64,000 nt of DNA from Haloplanus salinarum (GTDB lineage: Archaea; Halobacteriota; Halobacteria; Halobacteriales; Haloferacaceae): positions 3,292,987 to 3,356,986 of the forward strand of contig NZ_CP101823.1 of assembly GCF_024498175.1 (NCBI RefSeq), read 5' to 3'. The notes under the pieces are model-generated. The model saw nothing but the letters and a program-made list of their open reading frames with translations, was not told where the DNA came from and did not search any database. How positions within the stretch are numbered: position 1 is the first letter of the stretch; each line of letters starts with the position of its first letter. A program made the translations under genes and the position numbers. Shown in pieces: positions 22,727 through 48,404 of the stretch.

Positions 22727-22751
22727 CACCGTCTCCCGACTACGTGTGGCG

Positions 22752-24614
22752 ATGTCACCGCCCGTTCGACGCGACGTGTTGCGGGTCGACCTCTCCGCCG
22801 GGACCGTCTCCCGCGAACGGGTCCCCGACGGCTGGCGACGCGACTTCCTGGGCGGCAAGGGCCTCGGCGCCCGCTACCTCTACGACGAACTCGACGCCGG
22901 CACCGATCCGCTGGGGCCGGACAATCGGCTCTGTCTCCTCCTCGGCCCGCTCTCGGGCTACCTCCCCGGCGAGTCGCGCTACGCGGCGGTCACCAAGTCG
23001 CCCCTGACCGGCGCCTTCCTCGACTCCTACAGCGGCGGGTCCTTCGCCGACGCCCTCGCCGGCGCCCTCCCCGAGGCCTTCGGCCTGGTGATCGAGGGCG
23101 TCGCCGACGATCCGACGGTCCTCACCGTCCGTGACGGCGAGGCGAAACTGGCCGGCGCGGGCGACCTGTGGGGGGCCGACACCGTCGAGACGGACGCCGC
23201 CCTCGACGGCGCCGTGGCCTGTATCGGCCCGGCGGGCGAACGCCGGGTCGCCTACGCGACGGTCGCGTGTGACGCCGGCGACCACCACGCCGGCCGCGGC
23301 GGCGCCGGCGCCGTCATGGGCGCGAAACGGCTCAAGGCGGTCGCGGTCCACGGCGACCCGCCCGACCCGCCGCCGGCGCTCGCCAACCTCCGCGAGCGCT
23401 ACGGCGCCGCCTACCGCGACGACGACACCGGCCGCTGGCAGGCCGCCGGCGAGACGGTCGAGAGCGTCGACTTCGCCAACGAGGTGGGCGTCCTCTCGAC
23501 CCGGGGCTGGCAGGGCGGCCGCTTCGAGGACGCCGGCGATATCGGCATCGAGGCGGTCCGCGAGGCGGCCACCGGCCGCGAGAACGCGGACGACGCGGTG
23601 CCCGGCGGCTTCCGCGTCGACGTCGAGGACGGCCAATCCGTCCCCCGCGGCGGGGCGCTCATGTCCCTCGGCGCCGGCCTCGGGGTCGACGACTTCGACG
23701 CCGTGGCCCGCCTCGGCGCCGCCTGTGACCGTCTCGGGATGGACGCCATCAGCGCGGGCAACGCCGTCGCCTGGGCCACCCGCGCCGCCGACGACGGGGC
23801 CATCGACCCCGACGTCGACCCGGACCTCGCGTTCGGGGACGCCGACGCGGCCGAGCGACTGTTGTCGGCCATCGCCACCCGATCGACCGACTTGGGCGAC
23901 ACCCTCGCCGACGGCGTCCACGACGCCCGCGAGCGGTACGGGGCCGGCGCCGTGCCGACGGTGAAGTCGATGGCACTCCCGGCCTACGACCCACGGGGTG
24001 CCGCGGGGATGGCACTCGCCTACGCCACCAGCGACCGCGGCGGCTGTCACCGCCGTGCCCGCCCGGTCGAACGCGAGGCCTTCGCCCGCGACGCGTGGAC
24101 GACCGCAGACCGCGTCAGGACCGTCGTCGGCGCCCAGAACGTCCGCTCGACGCTCTGGAGCCTCGTCGTCGACGACTTCGCGGGCGAGACCATGTGGGAG
24201 GACCTCGGCGCCGAGTGGCTGACGGCCGTCGGCCTCGAGTACGACCGCGACTCGCTGGCGCGGGTCGGCGAACGCGTCTGGACGCTCGTCCGCCTGTTCA
24301 ACGTCCGCGAGGGCTTCGACCGCGAGGACGACACCCTACCCGCCCTGTTCGAGGACCCGCTTCCCGACGGGCCCGCGGCGGGCCGCACCGTCGACCGCGG
24401 GGCGTTCGAGGACATGCTCGACGCCTACTACGCGGCCCGCGGGTGGTCGGTCGACGGCCGCCCGACCGACGCGCTCGTCGACCGACTGGACCTCGCCGCC
24501 GTCGTCGACGCCGAGACGCCGCTCGGAAACGCCGCCGACGGGGCGGTCGTCGACGCCGGATCCGGGGACGGGGTCGGCGGACGCGACCGCCACCCCCGCA
24601 GTCGGGAGCCGTGA
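22752..24614 (+). CDS. Aldehyde ferredoxin oxidoreductase-like protein lacking the Fe-S cysteines
   Basis: 620 residues aligning end to end with AOR enzymes: FLGGKGLGARYLYDEL, LGPDNRL, TKSPLTGAFLDSYSGG, AGRGGAGAVMGAKRLKAVAV, and AYDPRGAAGMALAYATSDRG with GCHRRA, the last two being pterin and cofactor loops. Where active AORs have CxxCxxxC (about residues 280-300 here) there is DAVPGGFRVDVEDGQSVPRG with no cysteine, and where the fourth ligand sits (about 461-472) there is AQNVRSTLWSLV. So the [4Fe-4S] cluster cannot be bound as usual. A paralogue at 46470 keeps all four cysteines. The stop overlaps the next gene's start (GTGA). A GTG at 22746 is an alternative start. Confidence 0.87.
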   Translation: MSPPVRRDVLRVDLSAGTVSRERVPDGWRRDFLGGKGLGARYLYDELDAGTDPLGPDNRLCLLLGPLSGYLPGESRYAAVTKSPLTGAFLDSYSGGSFADALAGALPEAFGLVIEGVADDPTVLTVRDGEAKLAGAGDLWGADTVETDAALDGAVACIGPAGERRVAYATVACDAGDHHAGRGGAGAVMGAKRLKAVAVHGDPPDPPPALANLRERYGAAYRDDDTGRWQAAGETVESVDFANEVGVLSTRGWQGGRFEDAGDIGIEAVREAATGRENADDAVPGGFRVDVEDGQSVPRGGALMSLGAGLGVDDFDAVARLGAACDRLGMDAISAGNAVAWATRAADDGAIDPDVDPDLAFGDADAAERLLSAIATRSTDLGDTLADGVHDARERYGAGAVPTVKSMALPAYDPRGAAGMALAYATSDRGGCHRRARPVEREAFARDAWTTADRVRTVVGAQNVRSTLWSLVVDDFAGETMWEDLGAEWLTAVGLEYDRDSLARVGERVWTLVRLFNVREGFDREDDTLPALFEDPLPDGPAAGRTVDRGAFEDMLDAYYAARGWSVDGRPTDALVDRLDLAAVVDAETPLGNAADGAVVDAGSGDGVGGRDRHPRSREP

Positions 24615-24775
24615 CCGGGTCGAACCCAGCCCGGCCACACGACTGTCATCGCTGTGGCGAGACCATCGAACCGGGGGACATCTACGGTGCGCTCGACCTC
24701 CTCGACGCCGACGGCGAACTGCGGGTGTTGCTCTGTCGCTCCTGTTCGGCGGCGCTGCGCGACTTCCTCGAATGA
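24611..24775 (+). CDS. 54-residue zinc-finger protein coupled to the AOR-like gene
   Basis: From GTG 24611, overlapping the AOR-like stop as GTGA. HDCHRCGETIEPGDIYGALD and LLCRSCSAALRDFLE supply two CxxC pairs (C12/C15 and C42/C45) plus a nearby His, a treble-clef zinc site. The tight coupling suggests equal expression with the AOR-like protein; a structural or partner role is inference. The overlapping ATG at 24772 opens a frame that is Arg/Pro-rich and not a gene. Confidence 0.82.
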   Translation: MTGSNPARPHDCHRCGETIEPGDIYGALDLLDADGELRVLLCRSCSAALRDFLE

Positions 24776-24853: not shown

Positions 24854-25240
24854 ATGGACGAATTCGACCTCGGCGTTCCCCGACAGATCCTCGACTCGCT
24901 TCCCGACGACGACGACGCGGCCCGAGAGGACATGCAGCGGGCCGTCGTCGGCCTCGAAGGCCGACTCAACGAGGCCGTCGAATCCGCCGACGACGAACGC
25001 GAGGCCGCACAGAACGTCGTCGGTGCCCTCGAACGCCTGGAGGAACAGCTCGAACAGTACGACGAGTTCGTCCCCGAACTCCGCGCGTGGGGGCAGTCGC
25101 CCATCTACGCCATCGCGTGGCGCAACCTGCAGGCGGACCTCATCATGCAGATTCAGGAGGTCGGCTGGGTCGCCGAGCGCATCGACCGTGAGCGCAACTA
25201 CCGAACCGTCGAGGACGGCATCCGCCTGAGCGATCGGTAG
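24854..25240 (+). CDS. Conserved haloarchaeal coiled-coil protein, unknown
   Basis: 128 highly acidic residues. Residues ~22-70 are a predicted coiled coil (REDMQRAVVGLEGRLNEAVE, NVVGALERLEEQLEQYDEF), followed by WGQSPIYAIAWRNLQADLIM, QEVGWVAERIDRE and a short tail. No enzyme motif or membrane segment. It stands between the AOR-like operon and the ubiquitin-like gene with promoter-like sequences on both sides. Function not known. Confidence 0.75.
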   Translation: MDEFDLGVPRQILDSLPDDDDAAREDMQRAVVGLEGRLNEAVESADDEREAAQNVVGALERLEEQLEQYDEFVPELRAWGQSPIYAIAWRNLQADLIMQIQEVGWVAERIDRERNYRTVEDGIRLSDR

Positions 25241-25298: not shown

Positions 25299-25583
25299 AT
25301 GGATCTGGAACTGCGGTTTTTCGCCACGTTCCGCGAGGCAGTCGGTCAGAAGACTCTGGAACACGAGTTCGAGGACGGCGCCACCGTCGGCGAGGTTCTC
25401 CTGACTCTCGAATCGGCGTACGACGGCCTGGAAGGCAAGCTGATCGACGATCAGGGTGACCTCCAGCCGAACTTGAACATCCTGAAAAACGGTCGGGAGG
25501 TGCTACATATGGAGGGCACCGAGACGGTGATGGAGGACGGCGACACGCTGTCGGTGTTCCCGCCGGTGGCGGGCGGGGCATGA
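25299..25583 (+). CDS. Ubiquitin-like SAMP/MoaD-family protein, closest to SAMP3
   Basis: 94 residues of β-grasp fold: MDLELRFFATFREAVGQKTL, ATVGEVLLTLESAYDGLEGK, LNILKNGREVLHMEG and GDTLSVFPPVAGG. From memory, Haloferax SAMP3 has nearly the same FFATFRE, LKNGREV and FPPVAGG segments. SAMPs are conjugated to lysines, or donate sulfur, through a C-terminal Gly-Gly activated by the E1 enzyme UbaA. Here the frame adds one Ala after the Gly-Gly (GGC GGG GCA TGA) because the stop overlaps the next start (ATGA). That would block adenylation unless the residue is removed. Two further genes follow in tight coupling. Confidence 0.9.
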   Translation: MDLELRFFATFREAVGQKTLEHEFEDGATVGEVLLTLESAYDGLEGKLIDDQGDLQPNLNILKNGREVLHMEGTETVMEDGDTLSVFPPVAGGA

Positions 25584-25849
25584 ACGACGAGTGGGTTCGT
25601 CGGGAGCGCTCCTTCCGCGGCATCTCGAAGCGGCTGGCGATCCAGTATCTCGAAACCCTCGGCGCCGAGCAGGTGAGCGAGGGCCGCGTCGAGGCCGACG
25701 ACTGGGCGGCCGACCTCTCGGCACAGACGGTCGGCGTCGGTCCGTCGGTGTCGCTGACACAGATCGACTTCGTCTTCGAGGGCGACCCGGACGTCCTCGA
25801 CCCGCTCATCGAACGGTTCGCACAGAAGGCGATGCGCGCGGGTGGCTGA
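25580..25849 (+). CDS. Small protein coupled to the SAMP-like gene, C-terminus Ala-Gly-Gly
   Basis: 89 residues, ATG overlapping the ubiquitin-like stop. Two helices and a β-pair: RRERSFRGISKRLAIQYLET, GRVEADDWAADLSAQTVGVG, VSLTQIDFVFEGDPDVLDPL, then ERFAQKAMRAGG. The fold reads like the small MoaD-related C-terminal domains found next to or fused to MoaD proteins in thermophiles, but this is a recollection. The protein itself ends in Gly-Gly. Its stop overlaps the start of the third gene. Confidence 0.8.
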   Translation: MNDEWVRRERSFRGISKRLAIQYLETLGAEQVSEGRVEADDWAADLSAQTVGVGPSVSLTQIDFVFEGDPDVLDPLIERFAQKAMRAGG

Positions 25850-26216
25850 CGTGTCCGGCCCGGAAGACTCCCCCGTCGACGGCCAGGTGTTCATGCTCGC
25901 GGCCGCCAAGGCGAGCGTCGGCCCCGGACGGCTGTCGGAGCTGCTGACATGCGTCCAGCGCGACCTCGACGACCGCTTCGACACCTACCGCCGCGAGTTC
26001 GAACGCGTCGTCGACGGCGAGGACCGCGAGGTGTTCCTCGTCCCCATGGACCACTGGGAGACGGTCGGCGACCGCCTCGGTCTCGACCGCCGGGAGATCG
26101 AAGCCGTCGCCCGCACCCACGCCGAACAGCTCCGGCGGATCGGCTCCGAGACCGACCGCCGCGAGGAGTTCGAGACGGCCCTCGAGATCCGCGAGGCGGT
26201 CGTCGTCGGTCGGTGA
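25842..26216 (+). CDS. Third gene of the SAMP-like operon, unknown
   Basis: 124 residues from GTG 25842, overlapping the previous stop (a GTG at 25851 is an alternative). Mostly helical: QVFMLAAAKASVGPGRLSEL, TCVQRDLDDRFDTYRREFE, VFLVPMDHWETVGDRLGLDR and AVARTHAEQLRRIGSETDRR. One cysteine. Not assignable to a characterised family by eye; haloarchaeal distribution is likely. The shared transcript suggests a role with the ubiquitin-like protein or in molybdopterin/sulfur transfer. Confidence 0.75.
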   Translation: MADVSGPEDSPVDGQVFMLAAAKASVGPGRLSELLTCVQRDLDDRFDTYRREFERVVDGEDREVFLVPMDHWETVGDRLGLDRREIEAVARTHAEQLRRIGSETDRREEFETALEIREAVVVGR

Positions 26217-26267: not shown

Positions 26268-27008
26268 ATGCCCACCGTTCCCGACGGTTTCCTCGACGGC
26301 GTGCGGGCGACGCTCCCCCTCCTCCTCGGGTTGATCCCCTTCGGCCTCGTCGCCGGCGTCGCCGCGGTCGACGCCGGCCTCTCGCCCGCCCAGGCGGTCG
26401 GCCTGTCGGCGGTGGTCTTCGCCGGCGCCTCACAGCTCGCGACCGTCGACCTCCTCGCGCAGGACGCCTCCCTCGCGGTGGTCGTCCTCACCGCGGTCGT
26501 CATCAACCTCCGGATGAGCATGTACTCGGCATCGATCGCGCCCTACTTCGAGGCGCTCCGCCGGCGCTGGTCGGCGGCGTACGCCTTCCTCCTGACGGAC
26601 ATGTCCTACGCACTCGCCATCGCCGAGTTCACCGACGGGGACGGCGACGCCGACTCCACCACCGCCCCGAACGGCGGCTCCACGGGCGAGGACGGGGCGG
26701 TCCGCGACCGGTGGTACTACTTCGGCGCCGCGGCGTTCATGTGGCTCGTCTGGCAGCTCGCGACCGTCGTCGGCGTCGTCCTCGGGGCCAGCATCCCCGA
26801 GAGTTGGGGGGTCTCCTTCGCGGTGCCGCTGGTCTTCCTCTCCCTGCTCGTCCCCGAACTGTCGGACCGTCCACGGATCGTCGCGGCGCTGGTCGGCGGG
26901 AGCGTCGCCGTCGCCGGCGCCGGGTGGCCGCTGAACCTCGGACTGCTCGGCGGGGCGCTCGCCGGCGTCGTCGCGGGCGTCGTCGTCGAGGGGAGGGCCG
27001 CGGCGTGA
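26268..27008 (+). CDS. azlC: AzlC-family branched-chain amino-acid exporter subunit
   Basis: 246 residues. Opening helix GVRATLPLLLGLIPFGLVAG and SAVVFAGASQLATVDLLAQD are the AzlC signature, followed by NLRMSMYSASIAPYF. A polar insert of about 28 residues (TDGDGDADSTTAPNGGSTG region) splits the middle, as often in haloarchaea. AzlC and AzlD form a two-subunit exporter of branched-chain amino acids or their analogues. The stop overlaps the azlD start. Confidence 0.92.
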   Translation: MPTVPDGFLDGVRATLPLLLGLIPFGLVAGVAAVDAGLSPAQAVGLSAVVFAGASQLATVDLLAQDASLAVVVLTAVVINLRMSMYSASIAPYFEALRRRWSAAYAFLLTDMSYALAIAEFTDGDGDADSTTAPNGGSTGEDGAVRDRWYYFGAAAFMWLVWQLATVVGVVLGASIPESWGVSFAVPLVFLSLLVPELSDRPRIVAALVGGSVAVAGAGWPLNLGLLGGALAGVVAGVVVEGRAAA

Positions 27009-27343
27009 CGACCACGCACGGCCCGCTCGCCGTCTGGGCGGTCGTCCTCGTCGTCGGCGCGCTGACCTTCGCCATCCGGTACTCCTTCATCTACCTGCTG
27101 GGCCGCGTCTCGGGGGTGCCCCCGCGGCTCGAACGGGCGCTCCGCTACGTCCCCGCGGCAGTGCTCGCGGCGCTCGTCGCCCCGTCCTTCGTCGACCCCG
27201 GCCCGACCGTCGCCGCGACGTTCCTCGACGGCCGCCTGCTCGCCGGCGTCGTCGCCGCCGGCGTGGCCTGGACGACGGAAAACATGTTCGCGACGCTCGT
27301 GGCCGGGATGCTCACGCTCTGGACGGTGGGGTTCGTCCTGTGA
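27005..27343 (+). CDS. azlD: AzlD-family exporter subunit
   Basis: 112 residues from GTG 27005, which overlaps the azlC stop (GTGA). Three to four helices with the family pattern AVVLVVGALTFAIRYSFIYL, ERALRYVPAAVLAALVAPSF and WTTENMFATLVAGMLTLW. It is the small partner of AzlC. It ends 15 nt before the convergent isocitrate lyase gene. Confidence 0.9.
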   Translation: MTTTHGPLAVWAVVLVVGALTFAIRYSFIYLLGRVSGVPPRLERALRYVPAAVLAALVAPSFVDPGPTVAATFLDGRLLAGVVAAGVAWTTENMFATLVAGMLTLWTVGFVL

Positions 27344-46469: not shown

Positions 46470-48404
46470 TCAGTCGTCCGCCGGAGCCTGACCGCTGGAG
46501 CCGGAGACGCCCGTGCCGGGGCCGACGTCGATGTCGAGACGTTCGAGCGTCTCGTCGGTGACGACGCCGTCCTCCCAGCCGCGGTGGCTGTAGTACTCCG
46601 CCTTCATCGAGGCGAGGTCGCAGAGTTCGCCCTCGGAGCCACCCTGACCGGGGATGGCCTCGTCGTCGCCCTCGACGAACCGACCCGGCAGCGAGTCGTC
46701 GGCGCCGTCGAAGCCGGCGAGGTTGTTGAAGTAGCGTTCGAGGTTGTACACGCGCTCGCCGGCCGTCATGAGCTCCTCCTCGGAGAGGTCACGACCGGTC
46801 ATGCCGTTGTACTGTTTGACGTACTCCTCGATGCCCTCCGCGAAGGCGTTGAACTTGCAGATGTCGAAGGAGTCCGAGATGGCGTGGAGGTCCTGGAAGG
46901 TGGCGCACAGCTCGCCCTTGCCTTCCTCCTCGTACGGGTCGACCTTCTCCGGGATGCCGAGAATCTCGGCGGCCGGCGTGTAGCCGCGCAGGTGGCAGGC
47001 GCCACGGTTCGAGGTGGCGTAGCCGATGCCCATGCCCTTCATACAGCGCGGGTCGTAGGCGGCGATGGTCTGACCCTTGACGTCGAGGCGGCACTCGTGG
47101 CCGTCGACCTCTTCGGCGGCGCGCTCCGGGCCCTTCGCGAGGAAGTCGCCCAGGTCGCTGTTGCGGTGGCCGACCTCCTCGATGAGGTCGATCATGTGCT
47201 CCTCGTCGCCCCAGTCGATCTGGTCGTCGAGGTCGTCGAGGTAACCCTCGTCGCTCATCTCCATCGCCATGGCGAACATGTTGCCCATGTCGATGGTGTC
47301 GACCCCCATGTCGTTACAGCGGTCGATCATGATCGCGATGGAGTCACGGTCGTCGTTGGCGGAGTTGGTGCCCAGGGCCCAAGCACTCTCGTACTCGTAG
47401 GACTCCATCTGGACGTTCATGTCCTGGCCCTTGTGCTTGTAGTTGACCTCGACCTCCTTCTTACAGGCGACCGGACAGGAGTGACAGGTCGGCTCGTCCA
47501 CGAGGATGTTCTCGCGGACGTTCTCGCCGCTGATGCGTTCGGCGACGAGGTCGGAGCCTTCCTCCTCGTTCATCGCGAACCCGGAGGTGTACTGGCCGTT
47601 CTTCGTCGGGTGGCCGTCCATCTCCTCCGTGATGTTCATCAGGACGTTCGTCCCGTACATCGAGAGCGCGCCCTCGTTGGGCGCGGTGACGTCGGACTCC
47701 TGGATGACCTGCATCGCCTGCCGGGCACCCTCGCCGAACGTATCGGAGTCGGCGGGCTTGGGCATGTCCGTCCCCGCTTTCACGACGACGGCCTTGACGC
47801 CCTTGTTGCCCATCACGGCACCGGTGCCACCGCGGCCCGAGGCGCGGTCGTCCTCGTTGACGATACAGGAGTAACGAACCTCGTTCTCGCCGGCCGGACC
47901 GATGGCCATACAGGAGAGGTTCTTGCCGTAGGACCCCTCGACTTCCTCCTCGATGATCTCTCGGGTCTCGTGGATGCCCTTGCCCCAGAGGTGGGAGGCA
48001 TCACGGAGTTCGAGTTCGCCGTCCTCGACGACGGCGTAGACGGGGTCGTCCGCCTGGCCGTCGAAGAGGATGCCGTCGAAGCCGGACCACTTGAGTCGGG
48101 CGCCGGACCAGCCACCGTGGTGGGAGTCCGTCACCGTCCCCGTGAGCGGGGACTTCGTACAGATCGCGATCCGACCGCTCATGACCGCCTGCGAGCCCGT
48201 GAGTGGCCCGGTCATGAACGCGAGCCGGTTGTCCGGGCCGAGCGGTTCGACGTCCGGACCGGCGTCGAAGACGTACTTCACGCCCAGTCCGCGGCCACCG
48301 ATGTACTTTTTCGCGTCCTCGTCGTCGATGCTCCGATACGAGACATCGCTAGCGCCGAGGTCCACGTGCGCTACGTGATCGTTGAATCCGCCTAATTCTG
48401 TCAT
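46470..48404 (-). CDS. Aldehyde ferredoxin oxidoreductase, tungsten/molybdenum-pterin enzyme
   Basis: 644 residues. All four cluster ligands are visible: CHSCPVACKKE gives C307, C310, C314, and C516 is in FDICKFNAF. Pterin regions: YIGGRGLGVKYVFDAG, TKSPLTGTVTDSHHGG, GRGGTGAVMGNKGVKAVVVK and YDPRCMKGMGIGYATSNRGA. AOR oxidises aldehydes to acids with ferredoxin as acceptor; haloarchaeal ferredoxin is 2Fe-2S (one is encoded at 40068). It is monocistronic and far longer in acidic loops than the 22752 paralogue. Confidence 0.95.
   Translation of the reverse strand: MTELGGFNDHVAHVDLGASDVSYRSIDDEDAKKYIGGRGLGVKYVFDAGPDVEPLGPDNRLAFMTGPLTGSQAVMSGRIAICTKSPLTGTVTDSHHGGWSGARLKWSGFDGILFDGQADDPVYAVVEDGELELRDASHLWGKGIHETREIIEEEVEGSYGKNLSCMAIGPAGENEVRYSCIVNEDDRASGRGGTGAVMGNKGVKAVVVKAGTDMPKPADSDTFGEGARQAMQVIQESDVTAPNEGALSMYGTNVLMNITEEMDGHPTKNGQYTSGFAMNEEEGSDLVAERISGENVRENILVDEPTCHSCPVACKKEVEVNYKHKGQDMNVQMESYEYESAWALGTNSANDDRDSIAIMIDRCNDMGVDTIDMGNMFAMAMEMSDEGYLDDLDDQIDWGDEEHMIDLIEEVGHRNSDLGDFLAKGPERAAEEVDGHECRLDVKGQTIAAYDPRCMKGMGIGYATSNRGACHLRGYTPAAEILGIPEKVDPYEEEGKGELCATFQDLHAISDSFDICKFNAFAEGIEEYVKQYNGMTGRDLSEEELMTAGERVYNLERYFNNLAGFDGADDSLPGRFVEGDDEAIPGQGGSEGELCDLASMKAEYYSHRGWEDGVVTDETLERLDIDVGPGTGVSGSSGQAPADD

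Follow-up and report, generated by a model that had tools for sequence, protein, structure and literature searches.

The best-described relative of the first gene of the module analysed here is a beta-grasp protein of the MoaD/SAMP family from Haloferax volcanii, solved as 2m19, which we take to be SAMP3 (HVO_2177). E1 enzymes need a free terminal Gly. The first SAMP paper reportedly included the neighbouring protein HVO_2178 in its tests of Gly-Gly proteins. Conjugation of SAMP3 in Haloferax through UbaA is published (PMC4500146, PMC7305310). A second relevant family, arCOG06308, is presented in the 2010 article by Makarova and Koonin as a TBP-like haloarchaeal family with a Gly-Gly end that lies beside the MoaD-like arCOG00536 and two small uncharacterised genes, and its members were proposed to act like ubiquitin-like proteins; AOR (aldehyde ferredoxin oxidoreductase) genes beside archaeal MoaD genes were already remarked there (PMC2948915). 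That description, as far as it was accessible, treats arCOG06308 as unique to Halobacteria and contains no fusions, no relation to the Thermus structure 1v8c and no AOR co-occurrence (PMC2948915). For proteolytic processing, the closest precedent is HvJAMM1, which cleaves a SAMP1-MoaE fusion directly behind the final Gly of SAMP1, both in vitro and in vivo, with function restored (PMC4443979).

The module studied here lies in a 64,000-nucleotide stretch of the 3.45 Mb genome of Haloplanus salinarum, hereafter the window; among named relatives, Haloplanus ruber is the closest at this locus (94%). As set out in Table 1, a MoaD-type gene (gene 1) is coupled to a gene for a small partner (gene 2) and to a third gene, and the gene order is identical in genomes that carry a 2m19-like protein. 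The initial annotation had described this three-gene layout with a third coupled gene of unknown function, which agrees with the neighbourhoods looked at; orthologues support the GTG at 25851, rather than position 25842, as the start of gene 3. Searches of Pfam and NCBIfam with genes 2 and 3 returned no convincing match, and the PADLOC and Csm2/WYL matches of gene 3 and gene U were weak and were discarded. Gene U belongs to no known family, has a strongly conserved stretch, DEFVPELRAWGQSPIYAIAWRNL, and moves with the module. Downstream of the module, approximately ten of the genera examined have an AzlC/AzlD pair for export of branched-chain amino acids, a position that is possibly a chance of the locus.

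Table 1. Features of the module and related genes in the window
Feature	Position	Strand	Basis
AOR-family protein, upstream of module	22746..24614	+	PF01314 3e-91; PF02730 7.3e-64
Small protein, 54 aa, two CxxC motifs, zinc-finger-like	24611..24775	+	sequence; zinc-ribbon matches sub-threshold only
Gene U, 128 aa, uncharacterised, same module	24854..25240	+	14/19 genomes; also in a plasmid cassette (L260)
Gene 1, SAMP3/MoaD-type ubiquitin-like protein, 94 aa, end VAGG-Ala	25299..25583	+	PF02597, NF041918, TIGR01687; 2m19
Diglycine codons GGC GGG, extra Ala GCA, stop TGA	25572..25583	+	sequence; similar junction in ~10 genomes of the genus
ATGA overlap, gene-1 stop and gene-2 start	25580..25583	+	sequence; 4-base overlap in 56/97 unfused pairs
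Gene 2, predicted TBP-like/DUF1952-like partner, 89 aa, end KAMRAGG	25580..25849	+	model; 1v8c C-domain; 143/144 end GG
Gene 3, 121 aa, coupled, function unknown	25851..26216	+	after gene 2 in 18/19 neighbourhoods looked at; GTG start by orthologues
AzlC/AzlD exporter pair	26268..27343		
Second AOR-family gene	46470..48404	-	ORF; PF01314 match at genome 3339516-3340709 (window 46530-47723)

Gene 1 belongs to the ThiS/MoaD beta-grasp domain family. It matches PF02597 (ThiS) with 55.7 bits against a cut-off of 22.5 and NF041918 (NCBIfam SAMP1) with 109 bits against 60, exceeds the cut-off of TIGR01687 (archaeal MoaD), and has 2m19 as its best solved relative (E 4.8e-35). The designation as a SAMP3-like modifier is therefore borne out, and the Gly-Gly-Ala end, the ATGA overlap and the neighbour ending RAGG can all be read directly in the sequence: gene 1 ends ...SVFPPVAGGA, and its GCA-TGA overlaps the ATG of gene 2. 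The diglycine thus stands at the end of the domain and is followed by one Ala in the encoded form. While 2m19 and its closest orthologues in one genus (g9) end exactly at the diglycine, others carry long tails or are fused, and an encoded terminal diglycine is a property of the encoded form rather than one that defines the family.

We gathered the locus from approximately 150 genomes, all parsed by one script, and obtained 137 distinct gene-1 sequences, of which 34 stop right after GG, 70 continue in a tail of between 1 and 47 residues and 32 form one protein with gene 2. The extra residue in gene 1 is real and usual among relatives: a base-calling error is ruled out by independent genomes of the same genus that have GGA or GGT at the same overlap (among them L004, L008 to L015 and L017). 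These are also the commonest gene-1 ends in the genus, in which L005/L018 and L016 have GG with the same ATGA overlap. The VAGG diglycine is kept in 136 of the 137 sequences, whether terminal, tailed or internal in a fusion, and its codons include all four Gly codons; since the motif is retained while synonymous change is free, its presence is not due to chance. The sole copy that lacks it (L136) is frameshifted before the diglycine, through either an assembly error or decay.

According to the initial annotation, the extra Ala arises because the overlap displaces the stop. As a tendency this holds, a tail being present at 52 of 56 junctions with a 4-base overlap versus 3 of 26 with no overlap or a 1-base overlap (Fisher 2.8e-13, a statistic that ignores kinship among the genomes). 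As a strict cause it is ruled out, since GGA-TGA provides a GG end and ATGA together in four genomes (L005, L016, L024, L135), and SAMP1 may also be tailed. The comparison of orthologous operons that the annotation had proposed recovers exact GG ends in 34 of the 137 sequences, and in four genomes such an end goes with the same ATGA overlap. The strong tie between tails and the 4-base overlap, along with the mostly small residues after the diglycine (Ala in 34 of 70 tails), would suit a reading in which operon compaction has left a neutral extra residue behind and Gly-Gly-Ala either is functional unprocessed or loses its Ala to an unspecific carboxypeptidase. However, a one-residue trimmer could not deal with the whole domains, or the tails as long as 47 residues, that follow the diglycine, SAMP1 is tailed without any overlap, and the requirement of E1 enzymes for a free terminal Gly is established; we consider this reading quite unlikely.

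On a tree of both proteins, the GG and non-GG states interchange approximately 12 times and the fused state changes approximately nine times, and blocked forms have therefore appeared again and again while the motif stayed intact. Since no tailed or fused form has lost the diglycine, these data argue for trimming and against loss of use, and a maturation cut is the simple reading that we favour for what appears, from the gene sequences, to be a blocked rather than a lost diglycine. The opposite view is that SAMP3 of the tailed species has lost activation, its MoaD domain being only structural and the Gly-Gly of the partner the active terminus. Although the numbers of tailed and fused orthologues and the exact GG end of gene 2 are compatible with this, disuse should bring drift, and the blocked diglycine has instead been kept through the state changes noted above while its codons varied. 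In addition, GG and GGA forms alternate inside one genus and the Haloferax orthologue is conjugated through UbaA (PMC4500146, PMC7305310). Loss of activation is for these reasons very unlikely in our judgement. Of the two options in the initial annotation, a protease step or lost conjugation, the former is favoured by the kept motif and by the JAMM proteins described below, with the qualification that the alternatives are not exclusive and that gene 2 keeps a Gly-Gly of its own.

The genome encodes two JAMM proteins and one E1 over the cut-off, the latter of UbaA type (PF00899, 270 bits). SAMP1-MoaE and the other Ubl-MoaE fusions cut by HvJAMM1 resemble the module in joining a ubiquitin-like protein with a blocked diglycine to a functional partner, in a genome where JAMM is present; SAMP1-MoaE, however, is an artificial fusion in Haloferax, and the partner in the haloarchaeal module is DUF1952-like rather than MoaE. 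SAMP1 of the host genome (2538066-2538341) itself ends VSGGA although no following gene overlaps its stop in an operon, and among the first 55 SAMP1 genes parsed 16 are tailed. Such tails occur in 16 of 47 genomes with a JAMM1-type gene versus 0 of 14 without (p 0.013, ignoring phylogeny, with the 14 genomes drawn from five genera and "JAMM1-type" denoting a gene that resembles the stronger of the host's two JAMM genes). This correlation offers weak support, not proof, and we assume that the second JAMM is unable to substitute for JAMM1. Because JAMM1 is almost universal in SAMP3-bearing genomes, its putative role in SAMP3 maturation leans on the SAMP1 precedent and this correlation. Two further ThiS-like proteins were noted: one (L196, genome 2006207-2006476) has a Cys-Cys end (YPFIFCC), as described for arCOG00539, and a short one (L195, genome 257945-258097) ends SQSPMRE without a diglycine and adjoins a gene for a ubiquitin-like protein ending VVGG (L194).

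Gene 2 ends KA(M/I)RAGG in 144 of 144 distinct sequences, with the stop directly after it in all but one. The three stop codons all occur at these ends, as do the four Gly codons, a freedom of choice that implies constraint on the gene-2 protein and on its free end. Judging from the translated ends, the Gly-Gly of gene 2 is hardly ever extended, whereas that of SAMP3 may be covered. The one copy with an extension past KAMRAGG (L128) is a fused protein with a repetitive tail. A second gene-2 paralogue, also ending KAMRAGG, stands alone with no SAMP3 or AOR gene near it (L186, 5739-6002; genome 1278238-1278501). An alpha/beta-hydrolase-like gene lies immediately upstream of it, and two copies of gene 2 are present in further genomes of the genus as well.

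An AlphaFold model of gene 2, built from five sequences, has a pLDDT of 89 and a beta-alpha-beta4-alpha topology. Foldseek found one clear match to it, the C-terminal domain of 1v8c (E 6.7e-5; the next, unrelated entry is at 0.04), and the model aligns with that domain at a VIA Z of 12.1. A sequence match to the designed protein 8d05 (E 0.007-0.09) was taken as chance. The Thermus thermophilus MoaD related protein 1v8c consists of a MoaD domain and the same second domain in the same order, with an internal VAGG and terminal glycines; it is fused in Thermus, whereas the two parts are split in the window species. A profile of three haloarchaeal fusions with short linkers gave a full-length alignment to 1v8c that spans residues 4-168 (E 3.6e-17, a value that owes much to the MoaD half, the second half being carried by the fold match), and 1v8c ends ...AASRGGG where the haloarchaeal fusions end ...KAMRAGG. 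A fused homologue scores 18.4 bits against DUF1952 (PF09189), below the cut-off of 22, and gene 2 of the window has no match; given the fold and the full-length alignment, we take DUF1952 to be the domain of 1v8c and gene 2. Bacterial MoaD-DUF1952 relatives were sought on plasmids, where the matches were to MoaD only. Gene 2 has the features by which arCOG06308 is known, namely a TBP-like fold (as modelled), a terminal GG, an operon with a MoaD-like gene and occurrence in Halobacteria.

The model and the match to the 1v8c C-terminal domain, together with the absence of a ThiS match, do not support a ubiquitin-like beta-grasp fold for gene 2. The suggestion in the initial annotation that the second protein carries the active terminus is thus right about the exact GG end but unproven, since the modelled fold is not that of ubiquitin. 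A refined version would make the partner a second, non-beta-grasp ubiquitin-like protein or sulphur carrier that is activated by UbaA. The exact GG end maintained with three stop codons and free codon choice, the terminal glycines of 1v8c and the Makarova and Koonin proposal (PMC2948915) all speak for this idea, which is compatible with our preferred explanation; a TBP-like fold with its GG at a helix end speaks against it. In the model the diglycine closes the helix of residues 70-88, whereas ubiquitin-like proteins end in an extended tail; the lack of a long flexible end does not favour E1 activation of gene 2. We regard such a second carrier as unlikely.

We compared the presence of the AOR family, determined by a PF01314 search of the same genome samples, with that of the module genes. 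In the family-level sample, SAMP3 accompanies AOR in 143 of 144 genomes and is missing from all 23 that lack AOR, where gene-1 best matches weaker than approximately 1e-17 were counted as paralogues and three AOR-less genomes were assigned by count; the sole exception, with AOR and no clear SAMP3, is an 82% complete genome (G156). Across the class, comparison of lists by script showed that 223 of the 224 AOR-bearing genomes also have gene 2, which occurs in 0 of the 68 others, the only discrepancy being one AOR-positive genome without gene 2 (G252). The absences are spread over many genera and therefore reflect several independent losses. SAMP1 is kept in AOR-less genomes, and the AOR link is for this reason specific to SAMP3. 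AOR lies within approximately 6 kb of the module in 12 of 19 neighbourhoods, and the second AOR-family gene of the window apparently belongs to the type that adjoins the module in other genera. On the Salarchaeum plasmid pJOR178 (L260), a SAMP3 gene whose product has a ten-residue tail is grouped with gene U, gene 2 and AOR, gene 3 being absent.

Taken together, we think it fairly probable that genes 1 and 2 are the split halves of a MoaD-DUF1952 protein that serves the AOR family, with SAMP3 made as a precursor that is trimmed and activated, and with a partner that docks and needs a free Gly-Gly. In this scheme, SAMP3 would be translated, coupled to gene 2, with its diglycine blocked by one Ala; a JAMM1-type metalloprotease would take off the Ala; and UbaA would activate the exposed Gly-Gly. 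The resulting carrier would deliver sulphur for the tungsto- or molybdopterin of AOR, be conjugated, or both, while the TBP-like partner may dock SAMP3 or its target and would need its own free C-terminal Gly-Gly. Physical contact between SAMP3 and the gene-2 protein is suggested by their fusion and coupling. What the sequences themselves show is the precursor form, the fusions, the invariant ends, the module and its coincidence with AOR. In a bolder form of the proposal, the partner would be a second, non-ubiquitin-fold carrier or modifier whose own Gly-Gly is activated; together with SAMP3 it would make up a single split or fused protein, conserved from Thermus to the haloarchaea and dedicated to the maturation of tungsten-type aldehyde oxidoreductases. 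We consider this form unlikely.

The arCOG06308 family has been known since 2010 and SAMP3 conjugation in Haloferax is likewise published (PMC2948915, PMC4500146, PMC7305310). In the part of the literature covered by our searches we found no mention of the tails, the fusions, the correspondence to 1v8c or the genome-wide AOR co-occurrence, and it is with moderate confidence that we regard the precursor and fused forms of SAMP3, the Thermus link and the near-perfect co-occurrence with AOR as new. Under the explanation that we prefer, SAMP3 would gain a likely physiological job, that of serving aldehyde oxidoreductases. Archaeal ubiquitin-like proteins are commonly encoded in a blocked precursor form, a parallel to eukaryotic ubiquitin, and JAMM proteases may serve in maturation as well as in deconjugation. 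The Thermus crystal structure, for long an orphan, is tied to a haloarchaeal family that shares its conserved terminal glycines.
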